From positions 124,001 to 188,000 of the forward strand of contig JAHCMK010000001.1 in NCBI GenBank assembly GCA_019192445.1: a stretch of DNA of 64,000 nucleotides, written 5' to 3'. The notes under the pieces were generated by a model, which did not search any database, had not been told where the DNA came from, and saw only the letters and a program-made list of their open reading frames with translations. Below are positions 47,956 through 62,736 of this stretch, piece by piece; the stretch's first letter is position 1, and every line of letters begins with the position of its first letter. The DNA is from Oceanococcus sp. HetDA_MAG_MS8 (GTDB taxonomy: Bacteria; Pseudomonadota; Gammaproteobacteria; Nevskiales; Oceanococcaceae). The position numbers and the translations under genes are program-made.

Positions 47956-48188
47956 GACTCCCCACTGTTCAATGTAGGCAAGAAGAATGGCAGCAAAGCT
48001 GTTGGGGCTCAAGCCTGCCGGTCTGTTGATGCCGAGATGGCCAGTCCTTGGCAACACGCTCGCCGCGTCCTTAGCTGCGGAGCTGCGAATCCATCATTCC
48101 CGTGGCGGCCATCATTGTTTGTCAGGCTGAGGTAGTGTTGTGGCTATTCACCACAGCCGGAACCAGCGCGGCCGGGAGGAGCAAAGCC

Positions 48189-51100
48189 GTGAATGCCGAG
48201 CCGTCCAACATAGCACTCACACAGGTGTGTTTAAGTTGTCGTGGCCAGAACCCAGAGGTCGCTCGCTATTGCATGCATTGCGGTCAGAGCCTAGAGCTTT
48301 CACAGCCGGCCTCGCCGGAGGCTGCTGCCCGCGGTGCTGGGCTGCGCGGCGAGAACCGGGTTGTCACCGTTATGTTTGTGGATATCGTCGGGTCGACGGC
48401 CCTGGCGCGTGCTTTGGGGGCCGAAGCTTGGCATAGCTTGCTCGGTGAGTTCTTTGCACAAGCTGCAGCGGTGGTAGAGGGTGCTGGTGGCAGCATTAAT
48501 CAATACACCGGCGATGGTTTCATGGCCTTGTTTGGTGCACCTGCAGCCCTGGAGGATCACGCTCTGCAGGCAGCGCTAGCGGCGCTGCAGTTGAGGGAGC
48601 GTATGCGTGGTTTAGCGAGCAAGGTGCGCGATGGGTATTCCCAGAACTGGGCTCTGCGTACCGGGCTCAATTCCGGACCAGTGGTGGTGGGCGCTATTGC
48701 TGATGATTGGCGTCGTGATTACACCGCCCAGGGGGACACCGTACATTTGGCGGCGCGGATGGAGCAATTGGCCGCCCCGAACGGCATATTGCTGGCCGAG
48801 CGAACGGCCGCATTACTGCGTGGGCGCTTGCCACTCCGTGCCGGAGACGCCCTGCGGCCCAAAGGCATGGACGGAGTCATCCGTAGCTTCGAACTGCACG
48901 AGGATGCGGTGGAGCCTGCGTCGGCCTCCAGCGTGGACGCAGCTGCGCAGCAGGCTGCTCCCCTTATTGGTCGTCACGATGTCCTGGAACAAGTACGCAG
49001 ACAGCAGCAACGGTTACGGCAAAACTCCAAGCACGCGGCCATTCTTTGGCTAGATGGTGAAGCCGGCTTGGGCAAAAGCCGAATAGGCAAAGAGCTCTGG
49101 CGAGAATGGCAAGAATTGCCGCAGCGTCCATGGCTGCGATTACGCTGTGCTTCCGTCTCGCAAGCCGATGCTCGGCCCTTGGCACCAATCCGTCACATGT
49201 TGCTGAGTTGGCTGGGCGTTGATACTCGCTCGGCCACTGACTCCGCCCGGCAGGTCGTGGCCGCCACCATTGCTTTGGAGTATCCCCAACTCGCCGAGAT
49301 GCTGCCGCTGCTGCTGGATTTTTTGGGTTTAAGCGACGACCCCGCCGCAGATGATGGTCGCGAACAAAAGCTGGCGCAGCTGCCGCACCATCTTTGTCAG
49401 GCCCTGACTGGGCGTAAGCTACTGCTCTGGGTGGACGACTGGCATGCTTTAGACGCGGACAGTCGCCACTTCTTGCAGCATTGGTTGATGGAGCTAAAGG
49501 ACTGCGGCGGCGGTGTGGCTTTTGTGGGTAGTCGCCCTGGCCATCGTCCAGACTGGCTCGTTGGCGAGGGCTTCCACGTCCAAACCTTAGCTGCGCTCCC
49601 GGTTGCACATATGCGGAGCTTGTTGGCAGCGCTGGTTGCGCCCTGGGCGAACTACAGCGCCTATGGGCGAACTCTGCTGGCCAAAGCCGAGGGCAACCCC
49701 CTGTTCTTATGTGAAGCTGTCGCGCATGCCGTACAGCAAGGCCGGATGCGTGGGCCAATGGGCCGGCGCGTATGGTGCTCTGGGGTCCAGGATTGGGAGT
49801 TGCCTGACTCGGTACAAGCGCTGCTTGCCAGTCGTCTGGAGTCAGCAGGGCGCTGGGCAGCCGAGCTATTGAGCATGGCGGCATTGATCGGGCGAGACTT
49901 CAGCGAGGCCTGGCTGGCGATCGTCGCCGAGCACTCCGAGCAGGATCTACAGCAGCCATTGCGGGATCTCGCTGTAGCCGGCCTGCTGCAAGCCCGCCAG
50001 CCTGGATACTGGCGCTTCAGTCAGGCCTTGTTGCAAGAGGTTGCTGCGCAGCGGCTCTTACAAGGTCAGCGGAACCAGTATCTGCAGCGCTTGGCCGCCG
50101 CCTTACAGGAGCAACTCAAGCAAGGATCTCTGGATGAAGCCGTATGGGCCCAAGTTGCTGGGTTCTGGGCCGCAGCGCAGTGTTGGGAATCTGCGGTCGA
50201 GGCCAGTCTAGCTGCTGGCAATTACTGGATGCGCCAGCGGCTCAGCGAAGGCCTGCGCTGGTATCGGCAGGCCCTGCAGTGGACACATCAGCTCAGTGCG
50301 AGCAATCGCCAAGGTGAATTGGAACAAAGCGCCTTGTTTGCTTTACTCCAATCCACGTCCTTAGGAGGGGCTGAGACCACAAACATTCAACAGTGGATGC
50401 AGCGGGCTCAGCATCTGACCGAGGTGCAGAACATGCCATTGCGTGCGGCAGAGCTGCACATTATTCGCAGTACGCATCTGCTGAACGCGGGGGCGACACG
50501 CCAGGCTTATCGGCTCATTCGGCAGGCCGCAGAGGTGGCGCTGAGCCAGGCCGAGGGGGGGCAGGAGCTCATCGCCCGCTTTCGCGTGCCCATACTCTTC
50601 GCGCACTTTCTGCGTGGAGATATTCGTGGCGGGCTTAATTTGTTTGACCAGCAGGACGATGGCGCCTGGCGAGCCGGGGAGCCGCATGCAGACAATTACC
50701 TCTCCCGAGGCTTTTATGCCTTGTTGATGGCGGCGGCCGGCAAGCCCCGCGAGGCCATTTCCGAACTGGAGCGTGTGCATCAATTCGCGTCGGAACAGAT
50801 GACCCCGGTGAGTTGGATCGCCGGCAACCTCGTGGAGTTATACATCCAGTCGGGCCAGCATGATCGCCACCCCGATCTCGCCACGGAGGCGATGAATATT
50901 GCGCAGGACTTTGGTAGTCCCTTGTTCCTGGCGGTGGCATTGCGTGCGCAATCACTTTCTTTGCTGGCGTTGAATCGGGCCCACGATGCCTGGGAATTGC
51001 TCGCCCAGCATGCCTCGTTATTGCGGCAGTCGGGGCCGGCGCAGGTCTATGCTGCAGCGATGTTTGATGCGCGTGCCCAGGTGGCTTTTGCGGTAGGGGC

Positions 51101-51368
51101 TGAAGATGAGGCGCAGGAGTCCCTGCAGCAGGCCTGGGCTTCGGCGCGGCGACGTGGCGAGCTGTATTGGCAGGCCAAGGTGATGATGACTCGGCTGCGC
51201 TTGGCCACTCAGCTAGACCCCAAGTTGCACCGGCGCGCTTTGCGATTAATCCGTAGAACAGGAGCAATACAGCTTGATCCTGAACAATCCAAGCCTGCAG
51301 CCATAGAGCAGTTGCCATTGAATTCTGAACCATCAGCTTCGCGCTCCCAGTCCCTGGCCTCGACTTGA
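48189..51368 (+). CDS. Zinc-ribbon / class III cyclase-domain / AAA ATPase / TPR signalling protein
   Basis: A 1,059-residue cytosolic protein. Order: zinc ribbon (Cys14, 17, 28, 31; CLSCRGQ, CMHCG); class III nucleotidyl cyclase homology domain (about 57-235); AAA-type ATPase (about 258-560, Walker A GEAGLGKS, Walker B LLLWVDD); helical TPR-like region (about 640-1030). The cyclase metal Asp pair is kept (D65 in VMFVDIVGS, D109 in YTGDGF), but the substrate Lys position is Gln105 and the transition-state Asn is His186 (GDTVHLAARM), while Arg190 stays, so activity is uncertain. GGGAGGAG precedes GTG 48189. TGTGG-N7-CCACA at 48139-48155 may be an operator. First gene of a nine-gene run in which the third gene encodes a cyclic-nucleotide-binding domain. 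Confidence 0.92.
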   Translation: MNAEPSNIALTQVCLSCRGQNPEVARYCMHCGQSLELSQPASPEAAARGAGLRGENRVVTVMFVDIVGSTALARALGAEAWHSLLGEFFAQAAAVVEGAGGSINQYTGDGFMALFGAPAALEDHALQAALAALQLRERMRGLASKVRDGYSQNWALRTGLNSGPVVVGAIADDWRRDYTAQGDTVHLAARMEQLAAPNGILLAERTAALLRGRLPLRAGDALRPKGMDGVIRSFELHEDAVEPASASSVDAAAQQAAPLIGRHDVLEQVRRQQQRLRQNSKHAAILWLDGEAGLGKSRIGKELWREWQELPQRPWLRLRCASVSQADARPLAPIRHMLLSWLGVDTRSATDSARQVVAATIALEYPQLAEMLPLLLDFLGLSDDPAADDGREQKLAQLPHHLCQALTGRKLLLWVDDWHALDADSRHFLQHWLMELKDCGGGVAFVGSRPGHRPDWLVGEGFHVQTLAALPVAHMRSLLAALVAPWANYSAYGRTLLAKAEGNPLFLCEAVAHAVQQGRMRGPMGRRVWCSGVQDWELPDSVQALLASRLESAGRWAAELLSMAALIGRDFSEAWLAIVAEHSEQDLQQPLRDLAVAGLLQARQPGYWRFSQALLQEVAAQRLLQGQRNQYLQRLAAALQEQLKQGSLDEAVWAQVAGFWAAAQCWESAVEASLAAGNYWMRQRLSEGLRWYRQALQWTHQLSASNRQGELEQSALFALLQSTSLGGAETTNIQQWMQRAQHLTEVQNMPLRAAELHIIRSTHLLNAGATRQAYRLIRQAAEVALSQAEGGQELIARFRVPILFAHFLRGDIRGGLNLFDQQDDGAWRAGEPHADNYLSRGFYALLMAAAGKPREAISELERVHQFASEQMTPVSWIAGNLVELYIQSGQHDRHPDLATEAMNIAQDFGSPLFLAVALRAQSLSLLALNRAHDAWELLAQHASLLRQSGPAQVYAAAMFDARAQVAFAVGAEDEAQESLQQAWASARRRGELYWQAKVMMTRLRLATQLDPKLHRRALRLIRRTGAIQLDPEQSKPAAIEQLPLNSEPSASRSQSLAST

Positions 51369-51411
51369 GTACACTGAACGCTGTAATGACCGCTCGGGTG
51401 TAGGGGGAAAC

Positions 51412-52188
51412 ATGAGGCGAGGAGTCCGCTGGCTTTGGGTCGCAGTGGGTATGTTGGTTGTAGGGTTTGCCCCTGCGCGTAGCTTGCAAGAACTGCAAGA
51501 CTGCATGCGTGCGAACCTGCCGTCACAGTCATTGGTTCAGGAGGTGCGCCTGGTGGCGCATGACCGCTCTGGTGCGCGTGAACTACAGGCTCATGTGTAT
51601 GGCATGAAGTTGGATCAGGAAGTCGCAGTGATGCTGCGGATCCTCGCCCCTTCAGATATGTCTGGCTCGCGCTACTTGGTCATTTCGGGCCCGGAGCGTG
51701 ACGCTATGTATCTGTATCTGCCAGCGCTTAATCGTACGCGGCGTATTGGCGGGAGCATGGCGGGGCAGTCTTTATGGGGCACCGACTTCAGCTACGAAGA
51801 TGTCAAGCTGTTGCGGGGCTTGCTCACGCACGGCAGTGCCCAGCTGGAGGCTGAGGTGGAGTGGCAGCAGCGTCCGGCGCAGCGTGTGCGTATCCGCCCC
51901 AGCTCCGAGGAGAGTAGTCAGTACCAACAGGTGGATCTCACCGTGGACGATGCCACCTGCGTCATCGTACATGGCGATTTCGCCGACGCGGCCGGCCCAG
52001 TCAAAGAGTTGCGTGTGGCGCAGGCTGACGATCTACAGGAGGTCGGTGGCCAATGGTGGGCGCGCCGGGTGGAGCTGCATAGTTTGCGCGAGCAAACGCA
52101 TTCCGAGCTCTATATTCAGGATTACCGTATGGACCCGGATTTGCGCTCCGGGTTGTTTGACCCGCGCAGCTTCCAACGCGGGCGTTAA
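51412..52188 (+). CDS. LolA-like outer-membrane lipoprotein-sorting family protein
   Basis: A 258-residue exported protein (signal peptide ending near APARS, residue 24) of the 'outer membrane lipoprotein-sorting protein' family, a LolA-like half-barrel that carries hydrophobic groups through the periplasm: MLRILAPSDMSGSRYLVISGPERDAMYLYLPALNRTRRI, GQSLWGTDFSYEDV and DYRMDPDLRSGLFDPRSF are family blocks. Members of this family typically sit beside an RND/MMPL permease, as here (3 bp before the next gene). It would accept a hydrophobic cargo from or deliver it to the permease. AGGGGGA lies before ATG 51412, 43 bp after the cyclase gene. Confidence 0.87.
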   Translation: MRRGVRWLWVAVGMLVVGFAPARSLQELQDCMRANLPSQSLVQEVRLVAHDRSGARELQAHVYGMKLDQEVAVMLRILAPSDMSGSRYLVISGPERDAMYLYLPALNRTRRIGGSMAGQSLWGTDFSYEDVKLLRGLLTHGSAQLEAEVEWQQRPAQRVRIRPSSEESSQYQQVDLTVDDATCVIVHGDFADAAGPVKELRVAQADDLQEVGGQWWARRVELHSLREQTHSELYIQDYRMDPDLRSGLFDPRSFQRGR

Positions 52189-52190
52189 TC

Positions 52191-54926
52191 ATGGCCCAAC
52201 GCTCTTTGGGTCATGTTGTGGTGCGCTATCAGCGCTGGCTGCTGAGCAGCGTGGCGTTGCTGACTGTGCTCGCTCTGGCCAGCTTATTGACCTTTGAAGG
52301 GCAGCAGTTGGGCACGCGCCTGCGCATTGATCCAGCCGTGGATCGTTTGCTCGATCCCAACGACCCTGAGCGGGATTTTCAGCGGCAGATGGAGGCCTTA
52401 TTCGCCGAGCGCGATCCGGTCATTCTGGCGGTGGGCGAGTTCCCGGTCTTGACCAGCCAAGGGCTGGCCACGGTGGAAGCCATTCATGAGCGTCTGCAGG
52501 GCTTAAGCCAGATTCGCGAAGTGCGTTCCTTAGCCAATGCACCTTTGGCCCGCGATGATGCGGACGGAAGCTTGCTGTTAGATCCAGTGACCCGTCATCC
52601 CGCTGGGTCTAAAGCGCAGCAAGAGGCCCTGCGGGCGGCGATTCAAGCGAACCCGCTGCTCGGCGAGCAGCTCTTATCCGACGATGCCCAAACCGCAGCA
52701 TTTGTCTTGGAGTTTGCGCAACCTCCGGAGGACGCATTTGCTGCTGAGGACCTAATAGGACTGTTAAAGGCGACGGTGCGAGAGAGCGCGCCGGAGCTGG
52801 ATGTTTGGATCACCGGCGCAGCGCCGATTAAGGTGGCAGTGACCCAAGCCGTAGCCGCGCAGTTTGTGTGGTTGATTCCCTTGGTGTTGGGACTCACTGG
52901 GCTGATCACCATGCTGGCCTTTCGCAGTGTGCGAGGCGCTTTGCTGACCTTGGCGATGGTGGGCACAGCGCTGGTGTGGGTGCTGGCCTTGATGGTCTGG
53001 ATGGATACCCCTTTAACACTCGTCAGCGCCATCATGCCGCCGGTGGTGATCACCCTGGGCTTGGCCTATGCCATGCACGCGCAGTCCGATTTTTTGGTCC
53101 GCCGCATGCGCCATCCCGATGTGGATATGGACCAAGCCACGGCGGCGTCCATTGATCATCTCCGTCTACCCTTGCTGCTGACGGCGGTGACGACTATGGC
53201 CGGTCTACTGGCCCTGCTGCTCAACCCCTTGTTGGCAGTGCGGGAATTTGCCTTGTTCTCGGCTTTAGGCGTTGCCATCGATGCGGTCTTGGCCTTGTGC
53301 GTGCTGCCGTTGTTGCTGGCCAAGGTCAACTGTCGTCCGGTGCGTTTGGCGCACCAAGACCGGTTTGATCGGGTCGCGAATACCTTTGCGGCCTTTGCAC
53401 TCAAGCATCGTCGACTCATTGTCTTTCTGGGCGTGGGGATATTGCTGGCCGGTTTGCTGAGTTTGTCTCGGCTGGAGGTGGGCACGAACTATGTGCGCAG
53501 CTTCTCTGCCGGCCATCCGGTGCGTACGGACTTCGAGACCATCAATAGCAAATTGGCCGGGGTCAACGTTTTTTCCATTGTCTTGGAAGGCTTTGTAGCC
53601 GACACCTTTGTAGAGCCAGACATTCTTCGTTCCGTTCAGGTTCTACAGGCGTGGTTGGAGCAGCAGCCTGAAGTGGGCACTAGCTTGTCCGTGGTTGATC
53701 ATCTGCAGGTGATTCGACGCAGCCTGGGGGACAGCGTTGACGAAGCGGCGCAGATCCCAGATTCGGCAGCCGTGGTTAAACAGCTCTTACTCTTTGGGGG
53801 CGGAGCGGAGCTGCACCAGGTCGTCGATCGGCGCTTGGCGACGGCACGCATCGTGGTGCGTAGTTATGAAGATAACTCCGCAGCTATTGCCAGTTTATTG
53901 GAACGTTTGCAGCCGCAGCTGGACAAACTTCCGCGCCGCCTAGAGTGGCGTTTGGCCGGCGACTCAGTGCTTTTGACTAAGACCGTTGGGGAGATTGTCT
54001 CCGGTCAATGGTTGACTGTCGGCGTGGCAGCTCTTGTGATCTTCGCCGTGCTTGCCGCGTTATTTACCTCCTGGCGGGTAGCGGCGATGGCGATGCTGCC
54101 GAATTTAATGCCAGTGGCGGTGTACTACGGATTGTTGGCGGCGTTGAATATTCCACTCAACCCCACAACCAGCCTCATCGCCTGCATTGTGCTGGGCGTC
54201 GCCGTGGATGACACCATCCACTTTTTGGTGCGGTTTAACGCGGCCTCCAGGCAGTTGGCCGATGAAGCGCAGGCTGTAGCTGTGGCCCTGCGCGGAGTGC
54301 TGCGGCCGGTGACCTTTACAACCGTGGCGCTGTGCGCCGGCTTTGCTTGTTTGGCGTTGTCGCCTTTGCAAAATCAAGTGCAGTTTGGTTTGTTGGCCGC
54401 TGCAACCCTGGCTTTTGCCTGGGTGAGTGATGTGTTGTTTACCCCGGCCTTGGGTTCTGGGGTGCGCTTGGTGACCCTCTGGGATGTACTTCGATTGGAT
54501 CTGGGCGCCGATCCGCAGCATTCCATTCCCTTGTTCGCCGGCTTGAGCGGCCGTCAGGCTAGAACTTTCGCCCTGATGTCGCGTCTGATTGAAGTGCCGG
54601 CGGGTGAGCGTGTGATTGCCGAAGGCGATGTGGCTGAAGATATCTATGTCATCATCGATGGGCAATTGCGGGCTTACCTGGAGCGCGACGAGGGTGAGCG
54701 TGAATTGTCCATCATGAGTCGTGGAACGGTTATGGGCGAAGTGGGCTATTTTGGCCAACGCCGCACTGCCAGCGTGCGTAGCCTGACTCCGGCTAGGCTG
54801 TTGTTGTTCAACGGCACAGATTTGGATATTTTGCGCGCCCGATATCCGCGCATAGCAGCCACGGTGTATCGGAATTTGAATCTGACGCAGGCTCAGCGTT
54901 TGGCCAACATGGCCAAGATGATCTGA
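52191..54926 (+). CDS. RND/MMPL-family permease with C-terminal cyclic-nucleotide-binding domain
   Basis: A 911-residue inner-membrane protein. Residues 1-765 are an MMPL/hopanoid-exporter type RND permease: TM1 (about 17-34), a periplasmic loop, five helices (LIPLVLGLTGLITMLAFRS to LALCVLPLLLAK), then a second repeat (LIVFLGVGILLAGL, periplasmic loop, GVAVDDTIHFL). Residues about 781-895 are a CNB domain: FAGLSGRQ, VPAGERVIAEGD, YVIIDGQLRAYL, with the phosphate-binding cassette GEVGYF-GQRRTAS (Glu850, Arg858) intact. A cytosolic CNB on an RND pump is unusual; in this operon it lies downstream of a cyclase-domain protein, suggesting nucleotide-gated transport. The ATG follows the LolA-like stop by 2 bp. 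Confidence 0.93.
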   Translation: MAQRSLGHVVVRYQRWLLSSVALLTVLALASLLTFEGQQLGTRLRIDPAVDRLLDPNDPERDFQRQMEALFAERDPVILAVGEFPVLTSQGLATVEAIHERLQGLSQIREVRSLANAPLARDDADGSLLLDPVTRHPAGSKAQQEALRAAIQANPLLGEQLLSDDAQTAAFVLEFAQPPEDAFAAEDLIGLLKATVRESAPELDVWITGAAPIKVAVTQAVAAQFVWLIPLVLGLTGLITMLAFRSVRGALLTLAMVGTALVWVLALMVWMDTPLTLVSAIMPPVVITLGLAYAMHAQSDFLVRRMRHPDVDMDQATAASIDHLRLPLLLTAVTTMAGLLALLLNPLLAVREFALFSALGVAIDAVLALCVLPLLLAKVNCRPVRLAHQDRFDRVANTFAAFALKHRRLIVFLGVGILLAGLLSLSRLEVGTNYVRSFSAGHPVRTDFETINSKLAGVNVFSIVLEGFVADTFVEPDILRSVQVLQAWLEQQPEVGTSLSVVDHLQVIRRSLGDSVDEAAQIPDSAAVVKQLLLFGGGAELHQVVDRRLATARIVVRSYEDNSAAIASLLERLQPQLDKLPRRLEWRLAGDSVLLTKTVGEIVSGQWLTVGVAALVIFAVLAALFTSWRVAAMAMLPNLMPVAVYYGLLAALNIPLNPTTSLIACIVLGVAVDDTIHFLVRFNAASRQLADEAQAVAVALRGVLRPVTFTTVALCAGFACLALSPLQNQVQFGLLAAATLAFAWVSDVLFTPALGSGVRLVTLWDVLRLDLGADPQHSIPLFAGLSGRQARTFALMSRLIEVPAGERVIAEGDVAEDIYVIIDGQLRAYLERDEGERELSIMSRGTVMGEVGYFGQRRTASVRSLTPARLLLFNGTDLDILRARYPRIAATVYRNLNLTQAQRLANMAKMI

Positions 54927-54967
54927 GCGCTGCTGTCACCAGCACAGGCACCAAGAGGAGATGCCGA

Positions 54968-55723
54968 GTGAGAATAAGGGGATGGGCCTTAGGGCTTTGC
55001 TTAAGTGGAAGCCTGGCTTCGCTGGCCTGGGCGCAGTCGGTACAGGAGGTCGAGTCGGCCCTGCAGGCCCAGTCGCGGCAAGCGGCTTTGTCACAAGACG
55101 AGATCGACCAACTGGACGATGCCACCCGGCAAGCCTTGCTGAAGTATCGGGCGGCTTTACTGCGTGCCGAGCAGCTGCGGCTTTACCAAAAACAGTTGCA
55201 GGCGCAAGCGCAAACACAACAGCAACGGTTGGCGGAACTGGAGCAGGCGCTGGAAAGAGTGGAGGCCACCAAAGCCGACATGGTTCCGGTTTTGGTGCGG
55301 ATGGCAGAGGCACTGGAGGAGTTTGTTGCCGCCGATCAGCCCTTTCAACGTGATCAGCGCGAGGCTCGAGTCGCCGGCGTGCGTGACTTATTAGCCGACC
55401 CTGATGCGGCCCTGGCCGAACAGTACCGCGGCGTTTACGCAGCGTGGCAGGCCGAAGCCGACTTGGGGCGCCAGCTAGGCGCCGAACGCGTCAATCTTCC
55501 CGGGGCAGCAGCGGGACAATTGGTGGATTTGGTTGCCGTGGGTCGCCTGGCCTTATATGCCCTGTCATTAGATGGGTCTATGGCTTGGCAATGGCAAGCC
55601 CAGCGCAAGCGCTTCACCCCGCTGCCGCAAGCGGCGGTACCCTCCCTGCAGAAGGCACTACGAGTGGCCCAGGAGCAAGCCGCCCCGAGTCTGCTAACGC
55701 TTCCCGAGGGGCTCACACTATGA
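54968..55723 (+). CDS. DUF3450 coiled-coil periplasmic protein (TonB2 cluster)
   Basis: A 251-residue exported protein: signal peptide ending at AWAQS (residue 23), a long coiled coil (about 70-115, KYRAALLRAEQLRLYQKQL and so on) and the DUF3450 signature QPFQRDQREARVAGVRDLL with a C-terminal ALYALSLDG-SMAWQW. DUF3450 genes lead TonB2-type clusters in Vibrio and Shewanella, just before ttpC. The start is GTG 54968 behind AGAGGAG; an ATG start is not in frame. The end overlaps the next start (ATGA). Its role is unknown; binding to TtpC is a reasonable guess. Confidence 0.88.
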   Translation: MRIRGWALGLCLSGSLASLAWAQSVQEVESALQAQSRQAALSQDEIDQLDDATRQALLKYRAALLRAEQLRLYQKQLQAQAQTQQQRLAELEQALERVEATKADMVPVLVRMAEALEEFVAADQPFQRDQREARVAGVRDLLADPDAALAEQYRGVYAAWQAEADLGRQLGAERVNLPGAAAGQLVDLVAVGRLALYALSLDGSMAWQWQAQRKRFTPLPQAAVPSLQKALRVAQEQAAPSLLTLPEGLTL

Positions 55724-57096
55724 GCCGCGTTCACCAGTTTGGCCGTGGGATGACGCTGTTCGTCATGCTCGGCGGCATTGCCCTTTCTAGCCTGACCCCA
55801 GCGGCGGCCTCTGAGCTTCAGAGCCTGCTGGACAGCGTCCGTGCAGATGCCCGTCAGCAGTCCGCCCAGCAAAGCGAGCGTGAGCGCGCCTTTGTCCGTC
55901 GCAAACAGGAGCAGCAGGCCTTATTGGCCCAAGCTCAGCGACAGGTACGCCAGGCCGAGTCGGAGGTCGAAGCCTTGCGCCAAAAAATTGCGGCGCAGGG
56001 ACGCAAGATCGAGGCTCAGCAAAAGTCGTTGGAGGAACGCAGCGGTGACCTGCAAAGCGTTGCAGCAGTGTTACGCGATGGGGCCACCACAGCCTTGGAG
56101 CAGTTCAACAATTCCCTGGTGACCTTGGATGACCCGCAGCGGTTGGCGCGGATGACGGCGCTCACGCAGGTAGCCGATGTTCCCAGTAGTGAGGAGTTGC
56201 AAACTCTGTGGTTGGAACTGCAGGCCGAGGCTACGGCCCTAGCCAAGACTCAGGAGCTGAATCTGCAGGCCGGAGATGTTCAGGGTGATCTGCAGCCCAT
56301 GCGCGTCACTCGCTATGGGGGATTTGCATTGCGCAGTCAGGATGGTCAGTACCTGCGTTGGCGTGGTGGCCGCAGTGCGCCGGAGTTGATTGCTCGGCAG
56401 CCTAAGCCTGGTTTGGCGGAGCGGGTCGCTGGGGCATCCGTTGAGGGCTTGATTATTGACCCTACGGGCGGCTTGCTGCTGGGTTTGCAGCAGTCCAAAC
56501 CTAGCCTGCGCGAGAGAATTGCCCAAGGTGGTGTGATTGGCTTCGTGATCTTGGGGCTCGGTGCCCTCGGTCTGCTGCTGGGCTTGGTTCAGTGGCTGTA
56601 CTTGCTCGTTGTCGGGGCTAAGGTTAACCGTCAGCTCAAGCAGCCCGGCCAAGCGCAGGCCAACAATCCTTTGGGCCGAGTCTTAGCCTTAAGGCAGAGC
56701 GGGGCGGGGCGGGACTTTTCCTCGCTAGAGCTGGCGGCCGATGAGGCTGTGATGCGCGAAGTTCCGCGGCTAGAACGGCTGCAGGATACGGTGCGTTTGT
56801 TGGCCGCTGTTGCGCCCTTGCTGGGCCTGCTGGGCACGGTGACGGGCATGATCGAAACCTTCCAGGCCATTACCCTGTTTGGAACCGGTGATCCAAAATT
56901 GATGGCCGGTGGAATCTCGCAGGCCTTGATGACAACCGTGTTGGGTCTAGTGGTGGCCGTACCCTTACTGTTCTTACATAGCTTGGTGGTGGCTCGCAGC
57001 CGCAGCATTGTTCAGGTGCTGGATCAGCAAAGTGCCGGCTTATTGGCCGAGCTTCGTGAAGACCAGGCCCAAGTATTGACACCGGAGGTGGCATGA
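55720..57096 (+). CDS. TtpC-like MotA/TolQ/ExbB proton-channel protein with coiled-coil N-terminus
   Basis: A 458-residue inner-membrane protein with an N-terminal signal segment (MTLFVMLGGIALSSLT), a coiled coil (about 45-115, rich in Gln and Arg), and a MotA/TolQ/ExbB domain at about 270-445 with VAPLLGLLGTVTGMIETF and GISQALMTTVLGLVVAVP, the helices that line the proton path. The long periplasmic N-terminal extension distinguishes TtpC-type proteins, which are required by the TonB2 system in Vibrio. ATG 55720 overlaps the DUF3450 stop. The ExbB gene follows with a 4-bp overlap. Confidence 0.9.
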   Translation: MSRVHQFGRGMTLFVMLGGIALSSLTPAAASELQSLLDSVRADARQQSAQQSERERAFVRRKQEQQALLAQAQRQVRQAESEVEALRQKIAAQGRKIEAQQKSLEERSGDLQSVAAVLRDGATTALEQFNNSLVTLDDPQRLARMTALTQVADVPSSEELQTLWLELQAEATALAKTQELNLQAGDVQGDLQPMRVTRYGGFALRSQDGQYLRWRGGRSAPELIARQPKPGLAERVAGASVEGLIIDPTGGLLLGLQQSKPSLRERIAQGGVIGFVILGLGALGLLLGLVQWLYLLVVGAKVNRQLKQPGQAQANNPLGRVLALRQSGAGRDFSSLELAADEAVMREVPRLERLQDTVRLLAAVAPLLGLLGTVTGMIETFQAITLFGTGDPKLMAGGISQALMTTVLGLVVAVPLLFLHSLVVARSRSIVQVLDQQSAGLLAELREDQAQVLTPEVA

Positions 57097-57605
57097 ACCC
57101 TTTGGTGTCTGTGGCGACCTTAGTGGACCGCGGCGGGCCCTTGCTGCCAGCCTTGTTCCTCACTGCAACAGTGCTCTTCGTGTTGGTCTTCGAGCGTTAC
57201 TGGGAACTGTGGTTGGCATGGCCGAGGCTACGCCGACGCTGGGTGCAGGCCTGGCAGCAGCGTGGCGAGCGCGGTACGCAAGCGGCTCACCGGGTGCGCG
57301 AGGCGCTTATCTCAAAGGCCGCATTGCGTTTGGAGTCCAGCCTGCCTGTGCTCACTGCATTGGTCGCCATTTGCCCGCTCTTGGGTTTGTTGGGGACGGT
57401 CACCGGCATGATGTCCGTTTTTGATGTGATGGCGGTTGCCGGCACTGCCGAGCCGCGGGCTATGGCGGCAGGCATTTCTCGTGCAACTCTGCCCACCATG
57501 GCGGGCATGGTGATTGCCCTGCCGGGATTGTTTTTTCTGACCCGGCTGCGAAGCAGTGTCCGCCGTGCGGTGCATGCCTTCGCCGACTCTTTGGACTTCG
57601 ACTGA
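57093..57605 (+). CDS. exbB: ExbB-type proton channel subunit
   Basis: A 170-residue member of the MotA/TolQ/ExbB family: N-terminal TM (LLPALFLTATVLFVLVF), then LVAICPLLGLLGTVTGMMSVFDVM and GISRATLPTMAGMVIALPGLFFL. It is shorter than the TtpC-like neighbour and lacks the coiled coil, matching ExbB2. With ExbD it uses proton flow to energise TonB. ATGA overlap with the gene before; its TGA and the ExbD ATG share a base. Confidence 0.93.
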   Translation: MNPLVSVATLVDRGGPLLPALFLTATVLFVLVFERYWELWLAWPRLRRRWVQAWQQRGERGTQAAHRVREALISKAALRLESSLPVLTALVAICPLLGLLGTVTGMMSVFDVMAVAGTAEPRAMAAGISRATLPTMAGMVIALPGLFFLTRLRSSVRRAVHAFADSLDFD

Positions 57606-58009
57606 TGGCATCTCGACGTCATGATCGCCGTGAAGCCGAGCAGGGGGTGGACCTCACGCCTATGCTCGATATCGTCTTCATCTTGCTCATCTTCTTCATC
57701 GTGACGACCAGCTTTGTCCGCGAGGCCGGCGTGGAGGTGAATCGGCCCCAAGCGGCAAGTGCGCAAAAGCAGGCTGCGACGAGTATTTATGTTGCGGTGA
57801 CGCCCGAGGGCGAGATTTGGGTAGACCGGCGTCAGGTGCGCTTGGCGGGGCTGCGTGCTGCGGTGGCGCGTATTCGGTTGGAGAACCCGGAAGCCACTGG
57901 CGTCATCCAGGCGGATGCCGATGCTCGGCACGGGCTGGTGGTGGCAGTGATGGATGAGCTGCGCTTAGCCGGTGTGCGTGAGATCGCTGTGGCGGCTGAC
58001 GGGCCCTGA
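57605..58009 (+). CDS. exbD: ExbD-type TonB energiser
   Basis: A 134-residue single-TM protein of the ExbD/TolR family: a basic cytosolic N-terminus (ASRRHDRREAEQG), VDLTPMLDIVFILLIFFIVTTSF with the proton-carrying Asp in PMLDIVF, and a periplasmic domain ending VMDELRLAGVREIAVAA. The first base of its ATG is the last base of the exbB stop. Together with the two ExbB-like proteins it forms the motor of the TonB2-type system. Confidence 0.94.
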   Translation: MASRRHDRREAEQGVDLTPMLDIVFILLIFFIVTTSFVREAGVEVNRPQAASAQKQAATSIYVAVTPEGEIWVDRRQVRLAGLRAAVARIRLENPEATGVIQADADARHGLVVAVMDELRLAGVREIAVAADGP

Positions 58010-58010
58010 T

Positions 58011-58679
58011 ATGCGTTGGTTGACGCTGCCTGTACTCGCCGTCCTGGCTGTGTTTGGCCTGTTTTGGCTGATGCACTGGTTGGTGCTGCCGCCAGAGGGG
58101 GCTGCCACGCAGGACGCCGATCAAGCTTTGATCACCGTGGCACCGCCGCCGCCGGATACTCCGGAGCAGGATGCGGCCAGCAGTGAGCCTGTGGAAGCGC
58201 CCCCAGCGCCGCCGCAAATGCCAGCGATAGCGATGACCATGGATGTGGCCATGCCCGTCGATATGCCCACATCGGATGTGAGCGAGCTGAGATTGGCGGA
58301 ACCCACGGTAGAGGTGGGTGGCAGTGCGGTGGGTTTGGAGGGGTTTGGCGGCTTTGCCCCTGGCCGAGCCGGGCGCGGCAGCGGGCGCGGGCAGCGCATC
58401 AATGGCGACACGCTCGTGCCCTTATCGACAGCGCGACCGCAAATTCCCAGGGAGGCCTTTGAGGCGGGGATTGAGGGTTGGGTGGAGGTGGTGTTCTACG
58501 TCACGGCGCAAGGGCGAGTCACCAATATTCGTATTGTGGACGCCGAGCCCAAGGGCGTATTTGAAGCCGCCATGGTTGCCTCGGTGAAACATTGGATTTA
58601 CCCACAGTCGGCTGGTGCCCGTGAGGTTCAACAACGCTTTGAGTTCAAGCTTGAAGACTATCAATACAACTGGAATTGA
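58011..58679 (+). CDS. tonB: TonB-family energy-transducing protein
   Basis: A 222-residue protein with an N-terminal TM (LTLPVLAVLAVFGLFWLMHWLV), a short Pro-rich linker (APPPPDTPEQ, PPAPPQMP; much shorter than in E. coli TonB), a Gly/Arg-rich segment (GRAGRGSGRGQ) and a C-terminal TonB domain (about 140-222; PQIPREAFEAGIEGWVEVVF, IVDAEPKGVFEAAMVASVKHW). No TonB-dependent receptor gene is in the window. ATG 58011 lies one base after the exbD stop. The stop overlaps a TTG that could start the next gene. Confidence 0.92.
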   Translation: MRWLTLPVLAVLAVFGLFWLMHWLVLPPEGAATQDADQALITVAPPPPDTPEQDAASSEPVEAPPAPPQMPAIAMTMDVAMPVDMPTSDVSELRLAEPTVEVGGSAVGLEGFGGFAPGRAGRGSGRGQRINGDTLVPLSTARPQIPREAFEAGIEGWVEVVFYVTAQGRVTNIRIVDAEPKGVFEAAMVASVKHWIYPQSAGAREVQQRFEFKLEDYQYNWN

Positions 58680-58726
58680 GTGGGTGCAGCGCACCCCTGT
58701 CAGGCATGCCAAGGGATTTGGCTGTC

Positions 58727-61249
58727 ATGACTAGCCATGGGTATACGCAGATTTTGGGGCCTGCCTTGCTGCTGTTGGTGGCGTTGTTTCCCCCGGTTGT
58801 GTGCGGGCAGCAGTATCGCAGTGAGGCCAAGGGCATCTCGCAAAGCGAAATCGACAAGGCCGAGCGGGGCTATGACGCCGAGGCGGCGTTGCAAACCACC
58901 ACCGATCCCTATGCGCGCAGCATGCTACTGGCGCAAATTGCTGCGGAGGCGGCGGCGCAGGGAGACCCAGAGCAGGCTTATGCCCGCATACAGCAGGCCT
59001 TGGAGTTGGATGCTTTGTCCGGCTTTGCTCAGCAGCAGCTGCGTCAGCAAGCAGGCTTGCTGGCGGCGCGCTTGGGCAAAGACTTGGAGGTCATTCGTCT
59101 ATTAAAAGGAGCCAACGATCCGGTGGCTATACGCCAACTGGTAGCGGCTTATGCGCGCAAAAAACGCTGGCGTGAGGCGGCGTCTGCGGTGAGTCAGTTA
59201 CTCGACCAGGCCAAACCCAGCACTGATGATCGTTTGTTAGACGCACAGGTCGCTGCGGGTCTGGGGGATTGGTCTCGGGTTTTGCAGCGCACAGAAGAAG
59301 TGCTCAACGCGCAGCCGCAACTGGCGGCGGCCTGGATGCTGCGTATTCGGGCCCAGCTTCAGCGGGGCCAAATCCAAGCAGCCTTGGCCAGCCGCCGTGC
59401 GGCTTGGCGTCTGCGAGTATTAGTGGGGCCGGAGCAGCGCTTAGGACTGGTTGGCGATTTTGCCAAGGCCGGTGTGCCGCTGGCTGCGGCAAGCTTGTTG
59501 GAGGAGGGCTTGGCTCAAGAGGAGATTGAATCCAACCCCGAACGTCTGGATCAACTGGCAGCACTGTGGCTGCAAGCGCGTGAATATGCGGCGGCTAGGC
59601 CTGTTCTGGAGGAAAGATTGCGCCTGGCGCCTTCCGCTGAGGCATCTTTGCAGTTGGGTCAGATTGCACTCAATGCCGGTGATTGGTCCTTGGCAGCACG
59701 GCACCTGCGCGCCACGCAGCGACTGCCGGATCCGCAGCGCCGCGCGGCCGCAGCCATGTTGTTGGGGCAGGCGGAGTTTCAGTTAGGGCGCACCCAGGCG
59801 GCAGTTCGAGCATTTCAAAACGCCACAGCCCACGCCCGTTATCGTTCCAGCGCCCAGCAATGGCTGGATTATTTACGCAGTGGTGACGCATCCGCCAGCG
59901 CCGTTGCGGGGCAGTCTATTCGGCAAGCAGACGCCGTGCGTCAACGGGGTCAGCGGCTCAGCGGGCTGGGCGCTAATCGCCGTCAGCAGCCACAGGTTCA
60001 GGGCTTTACCCCAGTGGGCGCTCAGGCTCCCGGAAATGCCGAAGGTCAAATTCCAGCATGGACCGGCGGCCTACCGAGCACGCAGGAGGTCGGTGACAAC
60101 CCTTTCGCCGACGAGCAGCCCTTAGCCGTGGTTCAGGCCGACAATATGGATGATTGGCTGCCGTGGTTATCGGATGGCCACCGGGTCTTGCTGCAGCGCT
60201 ACCCTGAGTTTCGAATGCCGGTGTATCCCAGCCGGCGCAGCGTGGCTTATCCAGATCCCATCTATTCCGCGACACAAAAGAATCGTGGGCGGGCCCGCCT
60301 GCTAGGCTCTGATGCGATCAGCGGGGCGCGTTTAGGTTTTCCGTTTCCGGCGCCGGAGTCCGGGGTGGAGGCGATGTGGAATCACCGCCTGCGCTGGCGC
60401 GGTGAAGCCATGCGCCGAGAATCGAATCAAGCCGTGGTGGGCGGCAATGGCGAGATCCGCAACGTGCTTGTTCAGGGCGAAGAGATTTTGGCCCGTTACG
60501 CCAGCATTGCAGACCCGGCTGATCTCAGCCAGGAAAACATCTTGCTGTATTACCTCACCACGTTTGGCAGCAGTTTGCGGGTGCCAGATTTCACGGTCGT
60601 GGTCCATGAGTCGGCGAACTCTTTGGAACGGGATCGCGCCATTTGGGCCCTACCACGCAGCTATAAAAAGATGTTTCGCATTCCCCCTGTGGGTTATGAC
60701 AATCCTTTCCCGGGGGCAGAAGGGCTGTTCTACATCGATATGGTCGATATGTATAACGGCGCCTTTGATCACTACGATTGGAAGCTCGCAGGCAAGCGCG
60801 AGATGCTCATTGGCTATAACGCCTTCAAGGCTCAGCAATATGGGCCGCGGGCCGGAGCCGATGGCCTATTGCATGCCACGGCTCTGAACTCGGAGGCGTT
60901 GCGCTATGAAATTCACCGGGTGTGGGTAGTGGAGGCGACCGAGCGCGGCGGAAAGAGCCACGCTTTTGGCGTGCGTCGTTTTTACCTGGATGAAGATTCC
61001 TGGAACGTGGTGTTGGTGGAAAACTTCGACCGGGCCGGGCAAATGTGGCGGGTTCAAGAGGGTCATCTGCTGCCCAATCCCGTGATCCAGTCCGCCGATT
61101 GTGCTCCGGTTGTCACCTACGACGTGCAAGACGACAAATACTTTGTCCAGCGTATGACAGCGGATTTCGGTCCAGCGCAAGTGCTGGATCCTCCGCCTAG
61201 CGTGCGCGAGTTCCGCCCCAGCAATGTCAAAAACCGCTATGCCCGTTGA
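58727..61249 (+). CDS. TPR protein fused to DUF1329
   Basis: An 840-residue exported protein. Signal peptide MTSHGYTQILGPALLLLVALF...VVCG; a long TPR-type helical array (about 45-400, repeats such as GDPEQAYARIQQALELD, LAAAWMLRIRAQL, PSAEASLQLGQIALNAGDWSLAARHL); then a DUF1329 domain (about 440-835; QIPAWTGGLP, PVYPSRRSVAYPD, SRLGFPFPAP-type region, WALPRSYKKMFRIPPVGYDNPFPG, MYNGAFDHYDWKLAGKREMLIGYNAF). TPR proteins end TonB2 clusters; DUF1329 proteins usually partner RND permeases and DUF1302 in lipid-type gene sets. Here they are one protein, in the operon that also has an RND permease. The start may instead be ATG 58706 or TTG 58676. Confidence 0.9.
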   Translation: MTSHGYTQILGPALLLLVALFPPVVCGQQYRSEAKGISQSEIDKAERGYDAEAALQTTTDPYARSMLLAQIAAEAAAQGDPEQAYARIQQALELDALSGFAQQQLRQQAGLLAARLGKDLEVIRLLKGANDPVAIRQLVAAYARKKRWREAASAVSQLLDQAKPSTDDRLLDAQVAAGLGDWSRVLQRTEEVLNAQPQLAAAWMLRIRAQLQRGQIQAALASRRAAWRLRVLVGPEQRLGLVGDFAKAGVPLAAASLLEEGLAQEEIESNPERLDQLAALWLQAREYAAARPVLEERLRLAPSAEASLQLGQIALNAGDWSLAARHLRATQRLPDPQRRAAAAMLLGQAEFQLGRTQAAVRAFQNATAHARYRSSAQQWLDYLRSGDASASAVAGQSIRQADAVRQRGQRLSGLGANRRQQPQVQGFTPVGAQAPGNAEGQIPAWTGGLPSTQEVGDNPFADEQPLAVVQADNMDDWLPWLSDGHRVLLQRYPEFRMPVYPSRRSVAYPDPIYSATQKNRGRARLLGSDAISGARLGFPFPAPESGVEAMWNHRLRWRGEAMRRESNQAVVGGNGEIRNVLVQGEEILARYASIADPADLSQENILLYYLTTFGSSLRVPDFTVVVHESANSLERDRAIWALPRSYKKMFRIPPVGYDNPFPGAEGLFYIDMVDMYNGAFDHYDWKLAGKREMLIGYNAFKAQQYGPRAGADGLLHATALNSEALRYEIHRVWVVEATERGGKSHAFGVRRFYLDEDSWNVVLVENFDRAGQMWRVQEGHLLPNPVIQSADCAPVVTYDVQDDKYFVQRMTADFGPAQVLDPPPSVREFRPSNVKNRYAR

Positions 61250-61386: not shown

Positions 61387-62736
61387 ATGAGTGATAAACC
61401 CCGCGAGCTAGCGCGGCTAAGAACGCGCCCGCTGGAACGCAATTGGGCCATGACCCGCATGGGGTTGGGAACAGGGTTCCGAGCCGCTGGCCATGTGATG
61501 GCGAATTTGTTTCGCGATGAGGATGCCCGCGAGGCCTCAGACCGCGACTTCTACGCCGAAGAGGCGCGGCGCTTGGTCCAAGAGATGGGGCAACTCAAGG
61601 GCTCCATCATGAAGGCTGGACAAATGCTGTCCTTGTATGGCCAGTACTTCATGCCGCCTGAAGCCGTCGATATCTTGGCCAGCTTGCAGGATGACACCGA
61701 TCATGTGGGCTGGGATGTGGTGGGTCCGGTGCTGGATCAATCCCTGGGGCCGGAACGTCTGGCGGAGCTGGACGTAGAACGCGTGCCCATCGCGGCGGCA
61801 TCTTTGGGCCAAGCCCATCGCGCCACCGTGCATGACACTGGCGACACGCTTTGCATCAAAGTGCGGTATCCCGGAGTGGATGCTGCGATTGACTCTGATA
61901 TTCGCACCATTGCTCGCTTGCTGGGTTTTTCGCGGTTGGTGCCCAAAGGCCTATCCCTAGAGCCGGTGTTGACAGAAGTGCGGGAGATGCTGCACCGGGA
62001 AGTCGATTATTTGCATGAGCGAGAGGTGCTGGAGAGTTATCGGGAACGCTTAGCGGACGATGTCCGCTTTGTAGTGCCTCGAACCTACAGCCGCTATAGC
62101 AGTAGTGAAGTGCTGAGCATGAGCTTCGAACACGGCATCTCGCTGAAGGCGAGCGCGGTGGCGGAACTCGGCGCTGCGCGCCGTGAGCGCCTAGCGCAGG
62201 CCTTGCTGTGGTTGTTCTTGCAAGAGTTTTTTGTATGGAGACAGGTGCAAACCGACCCGCATTACGGCAACTACCGCTTGCGCCTGGATGATCAAGGTGC
62301 CGACCAATGGGTGCTATTGGATTTTGGCGCAACGCGCAGCTTTTCTCCGGGCTTTGTGCGCGACTATGCTCGCATCGTACGGGGCGCTTTGGAGGATGAT
62401 CGTGAGGAGGTTCTGCGCGGCGCTGTGGGCATTGGACTGATGCGGAGTTATTTCCCTGAGCCGGTGTTGCAGGCCTTCTTTGAGCTGACGCGGCTCATCG
62501 TTGAGCCTTTTTGTCAGGGAGAGTACGACTGGGGGCGCTCGGACCTACCCCAGCGCGTAAGTCAGGCGGTGGCGCGGAATGCCTTGACCCGCCATTTCAA
62601 GATTCCGCCCCGCGAAATCGTGTTCTTGCATCGGCGTCTGGCGGGAGTGTTCATTACCCTGAATCGCCTCCAGGTGCGCTTAGATGGTCGGCGCATGCTG
62701 GAGGATGCCCTGTCTGTCGCGGAAACCATCGAGTAA
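61387..62736 (+). CDS. ABC1/UbiB-family atypical kinase
   Basis: A 449-residue protein of the ABC1/ADCK/UbiB family: KxGQ motif GSIMKAGQMLSLYG, Ala-rich loop AAASLGQAHRA in place of a Gly-rich P-loop, VAIK-type Lys in CIKVRYPGV, the QTDPHYGNYR block and metal-binding LLDFGATRSF. UbiB-type proteins support ubiquinone assembly or extraction of lipids from membranes. It lacks the C-terminal TM segments of UbiB proper and is a single gene rather than part of ubiE-ubiJ-ubiB, so it is a paralogue of this family. It starts 138 bp after the DUF1329 gene. Confidence 0.9.
   Translation: MSDKPRELARLRTRPLERNWAMTRMGLGTGFRAAGHVMANLFRDEDAREASDRDFYAEEARRLVQEMGQLKGSIMKAGQMLSLYGQYFMPPEAVDILASLQDDTDHVGWDVVGPVLDQSLGPERLAELDVERVPIAAASLGQAHRATVHDTGDTLCIKVRYPGVDAAIDSDIRTIARLLGFSRLVPKGLSLEPVLTEVREMLHREVDYLHEREVLESYRERLADDVRFVVPRTYSRYSSSEVLSMSFEHGISLKASAVAELGAARRERLAQALLWLFLQEFFVWRQVQTDPHYGNYRLRLDDQGADQWVLLDFGATRSFSPGFVRDYARIVRGALEDDREEVLRGAVGIGLMRSYFPEPVLQAFFELTRLIVEPFCQGEYDWGRSDLPQRVSQAVARNALTRHFKIPPREIVFLHRRLAGVFITLNRLQVRLDGRRMLEDALSVAETIE

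Follow-up and report, generated by a model that had tools for sequence, protein, structure and literature searches.

A TonB2-type gene cluster in Oceanococcus closes with a TPR protein fused to a DUF1329 domain

Overview

The last gene of a TonB2-type cluster in Oceanococcus sp. HetDA_MAG_MS8 encodes a single protein in which a TPR array is followed by a complete DUF1329 domain. The gene lies within a 64,000-nucleotide stretch of DNA (contig JAHCMK010000001.1, positions 124,001 to 188,000), hereafter the window. TonB2-type clusters are already known; judged from sequence, a conserved last protein fused to DUF1329 is a new version of the cluster. No description of a TPR-DUF1329 fusion was found in a literature search that covered few subscription journals; the one paper to mention both DUF1329 and TPR has each word a single time.

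The fusion protein

The fusion and its parts are laid out as follows.

58727..61249, + strand: TPR-DUF1329 fusion protein (TtpD-like TPR array plus predicted LolA-fold domain), 840 aa (open frame, Pfam, AlphaFold2)
58727..58807, + strand: probable Sec signal peptide, first 27 residues (read from the sequence and an alignment)
58841..59878, + strand: TPR superhelix, residues 39-384 (AlphaFold2; TPR_16 at 308-366 below threshold)
59888..60004, + strand: variable linker, residues 388-426 (pLDDT <50; variable in the alignment)
60131..61225, + strand: DUF1329 domain, residues 469-833 (PF07044; predicted LolA-type fold)

The original prediction was of a TPR array that runs on into a complete DUF1329 domain, and this is what the frame contains. 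Translation of 58727-61249 gives 840 aa without a stop, and the PF07044 match (E 1e-96; 324.9 bits against a cut-off of 23.1) covers profile positions 2-366 of 368. The domain bounds first proposed were also about right, with the TPR array ending near 59878, the linker at 59888-60004 and the DUF1329 profile match at 60131-61225.

The sequence AAGGGA stands about 10 nt 5' of the ATG at 58727. The mature protein starts with QQYRSE, of which Q29 and Y30 are invariant across an alignment of 22 relatives, and a good lipobox is absent from the signal peptide when the sequence is read by eye. We infer that the protein is secreted. An AlphaFold2 model of the whole fusion, built from 22 aligned sequences, places a regular helical array at residues 39-384, followed by a stretch with pLDDT <50 at 388-426 and then a beta-rich C-terminal domain. 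The TPR signal of the window protein is under the Pfam cut-offs (TPR_16, E 1.6e-5); among five fused relatives, TPR families rise above cut-off in four and DUF1329 is found at full strength in all five. The join falls where unfused relatives end, shortly past a conserved QW motif near residue 379, and a conserved lead-in to the DUF1329 domain, FTPVGA..IPAWTGG, begins at about 60000. Relatives are more identical to the window protein in the DUF1329 half than in the TPR half, and many positions of the DUF1329 half are invariant across the 22 relatives.

When modelled alone, the DUF1329 domain reaches a pLDDT of 93.8 and a pTM of 0.93. With this predicted domain model, the best fold match by VIA is LolA3 of P. 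gingivalis (9tp6, Z 21.0), followed by a DUF1329 protein of D. piger (DESPIG_00262, 4z48, Z 18.6), the LolA-like domain of V. parahaemolyticus (3bk5, Z 18.1) and NE2245 (Z 14.9). LolB (9tpm) and classical LolA rank lower, and RseB is also among the matches (Z ~6.9). The two closest solved folds, LolA3 and DESPIG_00262, are chains of about 240 residues that differ from the fusion in having no TPR part, and they share 12-17% identity with its C-terminal domain. Searched against PDB sequences, the DUF1329 half gave chance-like repeat matches only. On the model, then, the domain is of the LolA type. A shared LolA fold is no proof of function. The fold also occurs in non-carriers such as RseB.

The surrounding TonB2-type cluster

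Five genes on the same strand precede the fusion, and their Pfam assignments give the gene order of a TonB2-type cluster.

54968..55723, + strand: TtpB-like DUF3450 protein (PF11932, E 3.3e-58)
55714..57096, + strand: TtpC-like protein with a DUF3450-like N-terminal part and a MotA/TolQ/ExbB channel (PF01618, E 4.5e-27; PF11932 below threshold)
57093..57605, + strand: ExbB (PF01618, E 3.3e-24)
57605..58009, + strand: ExbD (PF02472, E 2.1e-29)
58011..58679, + strand: TonB-like protein (PF03544 TonB_C, E 2.8e-10; start codon picked by reading)

The TPR array encoded by the last gene (residues 39-384) is homologous to the TPR proteins that close unfused clusters. That such clusters normally end in a TPR-only protein, as first stated, is borne out by Vibrio TtpD2 (425 aa), by two paralogous clusters in the same genome and by sampled relatives elsewhere in the class, where the last protein is TPR-only and about 400-500 aa long. 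The window cluster departs from the TPR-only form (~400-450 aa) with 840 aa and a DUF1329 domain.

The closest well-described counterpart is the TonB2 system of Vibrio vulnificus (TtpB2-TtpC2-ExbB2-ExbD2-TonB2-TtpD2), which has the same kinds of genes, with ttpB first and the TPR gene last after tonB. Its TtpD2 is a TPR protein of 425 aa that is essential for TonB2-dependent siderophore uptake (PMC6957404). Unlike the fusion, Vibrio TtpD2 has no DUF1329 domain and is iron-regulated together with siderophore uptake, whereas the window holds no receptor gene. The genome as a whole has 18 matches to TonB-dependent receptors, none of them within the window. The two further complete clusters of this genome (L093 and L094) each close in a TPR-only protein, and one of them, L094 (G000:C1:361000-380900, with the cluster near C1:366-371 kb), has receptor matches on both sides, three of them within about 10 kb. 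Receptors close by thus set this TPR-only cluster apart from the fused one.

The fused gene directly follows tonB as the last gene of a TtpB-TtpC-ExbB-ExbD-TonB cluster in all 42 loci that were read. Where enough upstream sequence was available (35 loci), all five upstream proteins appear as separate matches in 28; the other seven comprise four with TtpB and TtpC in one frame and three without a clear ExbD. The joined TtpB-TtpC frame, with DUF3450 twice plus MotA_ExbB, occurs at L073:4565-6841, with matching frames in L061, L063 and L070, and represents a second fusion inside the same cluster in four genomes. ExbD was not found between ExbB and TonB in the fused clusters at L077:7728-8974 and L138:10728-12040.

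Spread and origin of the fusion

A profile search with the TPR half across 85 genomes of the order separated two groups. The high-scoring group comprises 59 loci in 58 genomes (~318-552 bits), all of them open frames of at least 756 residues; the paralogues score no higher than ~266 bits, and most of their frames span about 400-600 residues. The corresponding gene is thus a long frame in 58 of the 85 genomes. For example, the fused frame recurs, with 62% identity in the TPR part, in the independently assembled genome of the second species in the genus. Both domains stand within one frame in all 42 further loci read (40 of the high-scoring loci of the order and two from family f117 outside it).

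Across the class, 73 of 369 sampled genomes contain a match at E 1e-30; in this sample, only members of the order and two genomes of family f117 have frames that reach about 860-960 residues. No DUF1329 match lies next to the TPR gene in 18 unfused class-level loci. Elsewhere in the phylum, no fusion besides that of the window genome was found among 398 sampled genomes, a limited sample at a strict threshold of E 1e-60. A scan of genome contigs matched unfused relatives only.

The original prediction had named two findings that would undo it, namely frames joined by a sequencing error and relatives with two separate genes divided by a stop and start at the join. The first is not the case, as a long frame of this kind is common to 58 of 85 genomes; long frames conserved across the order and in an independent assembly rule out a sequencing artefact or frameshift. 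For the second, no such relative, with a split two-gene intermediate, appears in the 18 unfused class loci or in the unfused Methylomonas and Endozoicomonas loci.

In the trees of both domains, a single, fully supported branch parts all fused proteins from the others. In the DUF1329-domain tree, 42 fused proteins are separated from 25 stand-alone ones (support 100/99), and the TPR tree separates 42 fused from 24 unfused proteins (100/98). This split is present in all 200 bootstrap trees for both domains, with some long branches flagged. Because each tree sets all fused proteins on one side, a single fusion event followed by joint inheritance fits as the simplest reading of the sequences. For TtpC and ExbB, two label changes are required in the FastTree trees; the remainder of the cluster is therefore close to a single group without quite being one. 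In family f117, the fusion may be an old inheritance or may have come by transfer.

A recent copy of the stand-alone DUF1329 gene that is often found downstream is not supported as the source of the domain, because the fused domains branch apart from all sampled stand-alone copies.

Genes downstream of the fusion

61387..62736, + strand: ABC1-type kinase-like protein (PF03109, E 4.5e-47)

An ABC1-type kinase-like gene lies downstream of the fusion in 24 of the 36 loci with room for one. In five loci (L072, L074, L080, L086 and L091), the fusion is followed by a conserved run of an ABC1 kinase-like gene, a stand-alone DUF1329 gene and a DUF2505 gene; the window keeps ABC1 and DUF2505 downstream of the fusion, without the stand-alone DUF1329 there. 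At L091:11483-11953 (- strand), a DUF6918 gene in the opposite orientation separates the fusion from ABC1, and small frames are similarly placed in L072 and L077.

The RND permease and other candidate partners

Upstream of the motor genes lie two candidate partners of the fusion.

51412..52188, + strand: free LolA-like protein directly before the RND gene, candidate partner (PF17131, E 9.2e-34)
52191..54926, + strand: MMPL/RND permease with a C-terminal cyclic-nucleotide-binding domain, candidate partner (PF03176, E 3e-25; PF00027, E 2.3e-15)

In the window, a class III cyclase gene, the free LolA-like gene, the RND gene and the motor genes follow one another on one strand. The row at 48102-54926 consists of the class III cyclase/AAA gene, the LolA-like gene and the cyclic-nucleotide-binding RND permease, and cyclase-like genes also stand ahead of a LolA-RND pair in L162 and L166. 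The adjacency of these three genes suggests that the window permease may be under the control of a cyclic nucleotide. In four other loci (L072, L074, L080 and L091), genes between RND and TtpB code for a short-chain dehydrogenase, for a GreA/GreB-type factor and for a small protein that has no Pfam match.

The RND gene is directly upstream of the motor cluster in only four genomes, and in 18 of 58 its coordinates put it on one contig with the fusion, at a distance of no more than about 25 kb. Presence across the 85 genomes of the order is strongly associated: both genes occur in 56, the fusion only in two (one of them 79% complete, with no RND orthologue detected in either), RND only in six and neither in 21 (Fisher p 1.4e-12, with relatedness ignored). 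This co-occurrence is confounded by lineage, because most double absences fall in one lineage (16 of the 21 in two genera of one family). A within-genus pair, G002 with both genes and G003 with neither, provides separate support. Some genomes whose TPR protein is unfused likewise carry relatives of the window RND.

It had been proposed that the fusion physically ties the TonB2 and RND systems and speaks for the operon as one machine. The first claim stands as far as the motor is joined to a LolA-fold domain; the tie to RND is less secure, with adjacency in four genomes and proximity in 18 of 58. The second has the co-occurrence in 56 of 58 fusion genomes in its favour and the lineage confounding against it, and one machine composed of the TonB2 cluster and the RND permease is no more than plausible.

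Systems in which a DUF1329 protein is associated with an RND permease have been described. In Castellaniella defragrans, AmeB (DUF1329) and an RND permease form a system for monoterpene tolerance (PMC6394551). The likeness of AmeABCD (DUF1302, DUF1329, COG4447 and HAE3 RND) to the window lies in a LolA-type DUF1329 protein that acts with an MMPL/RND permease (PMC6394551). However, its DUF1329 is a separate gene beside DUF1302 and COG4447, and no TonB2-type motor is described. The DUF1302 gene beside DUF1329 is absent from the window, which has no DUF1302 gene at all (seven occur elsewhere in the genome), and the genes scanned at 51412-61249 have Pfam assignments other than COG4447. The window RND scores 149.8 bits against the HAE3 model TIGR00921, with a cut-off of 351.9. 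In Pseudomonas putida, Tween 20 use depends on PP_0766 (DUF1329), which is predicted to contact an RND protein as well as a DUF1302 barrel (PMC10866462). PP_0765/PP_0766 and PP_2018/PP_2019 differ from the window in being separate proteins without a TPR fusion or a described motor, and their contacts are predictions only.

The window genome itself has eight stand-alone DUF1329 genes, two of them with an RND gene nearby. These two permeases resemble the window RND weakly (E ~1e-12) and therefore belong to a different subfamily. The window RND sits beside a different LolA-like gene (PF17131), not a stand-alone DUF1329. The permease that works with the fusion is thus probably not one that serves the stand-alone copies.

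Proposed mechanism and alternatives

The best explanation of the fusion, held tentatively and at close to an even chance, is a tethered periplasmic carrier for hydrophobic cargo. The fusion would supply the TtpD-type TPR scaffold to a proton-driven complex of the TonB2 kind (TtpB-TtpC-ExbB-ExbD-TonB). At the C-terminus of this scaffold, a linker that is variable and probably flexible would hold a LolA-fold DUF1329 carrier domain. Docking of the TPR array would take place at the periplasmic side of the complex, and the tethered domain would pick up or hand over a hydrophobic molecule between the inner and outer membrane in a transfer that would use the proton-motive force. The likely inner-membrane partner would be the MMPL/RND permease encoded upstream, and the free LolA-like protein would serve as a second carrier.

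We count in favour of the tethered carrier the fold matches, the position in the cluster, the single origin, the need for TtpD2 in Vibrio siderophore uptake, the transport phenotypes of stand-alone DUF1329 proteins and the co-occurrence with RND, together with the consecutive LolA-like, RND and motor genes on one strand and the lack of a DUF1302 or receptor gene in the window, in contrast to the receptors beside one unfused cluster. Counted against it are the distance of RND from the fusion in most genomes, the two fusion-only and six RND-only genomes, the LolA fold of RseB and the RND relatives in genomes with an unfused TPR protein. A broader version, possible but rather doubtful, is that a TonB2-type motor has been converted from a receptor energiser into a proton-driven device for hydrophobic transfer, with its own tethered carrier and an RND inner-membrane partner.

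Alternatively, the fusion may serve ordinary TonB-dependent uptake, with DUF1329 catching a hydrophobic nutrient as it leaves a receptor encoded elsewhere and with RND uninvolved. The complete TonB2 set, TonB C-terminal domain included, the 18 receptor matches in the genome, the distance of the RND gene in most genomes and the need for PP_0766 in Tween 20 use (PMC10866462) are all in keeping with such uptake. However, the window has no receptor gene, 56 of the 58 fusion genomes also carry RND, and the RND gene adjoins the cluster in the window genome; we consider this role unlikely.

An improbable reading is that DUF1329 acts as a sensor or regulatory ligand-binding module that tunes the motor to the lipid state, much as RseB senses periplasmic stress. 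RseB is indeed among the fold matches at Z ~6.9, and the class III cyclase and cyclic-nucleotide-binding RND in the neighbourhood suggest regulation in the locus, but LolA3, DUF1329 and LolA-like chains score far above RseB, and stand-alone DUF1329 relatives have transport phenotypes. It is very improbable that the domain merely lengthens the protein as a structural spacer, no longer carrying a ligand and only helping the TPR scaffold reach its partners: fusions may sometimes retain a domain for contact surfaces only, but this one is complete, has many positions invariant in 22 relatives and is more conserved relative to the window protein than the TPR half. Lastly, the chance is negligible that the join stems from an error of sequencing or assembly, or from a stop missed between two genes, given the long frame in 58 of the order's 85 genomes and in two more outside it, the fully supported branch that holds the fused proteins for both domains, and a linker much less hydrophobic (mean 0.96) than the N-terminal signal-peptide region of stand-alone DUF1329 proteins (2.19).

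Implications

This fusion bears both on how LolA-type carriers cooperate with RND permeases and on the role of the TPR subunit in TonB2 systems. That the join arose once and was retained by dozens of related species points to a machine that powers or holds a carrier of hydrophobic cargo, and would place the action of the TPR subunit and the LolA-fold domain at the same site. The fusion is of clear interest because it makes a link between a TonB-type motor and a LolA-type carrier testable, offering a specific connection between proton-driven motors of this kind and the passage of hydrophobic molecules through the periplasm.
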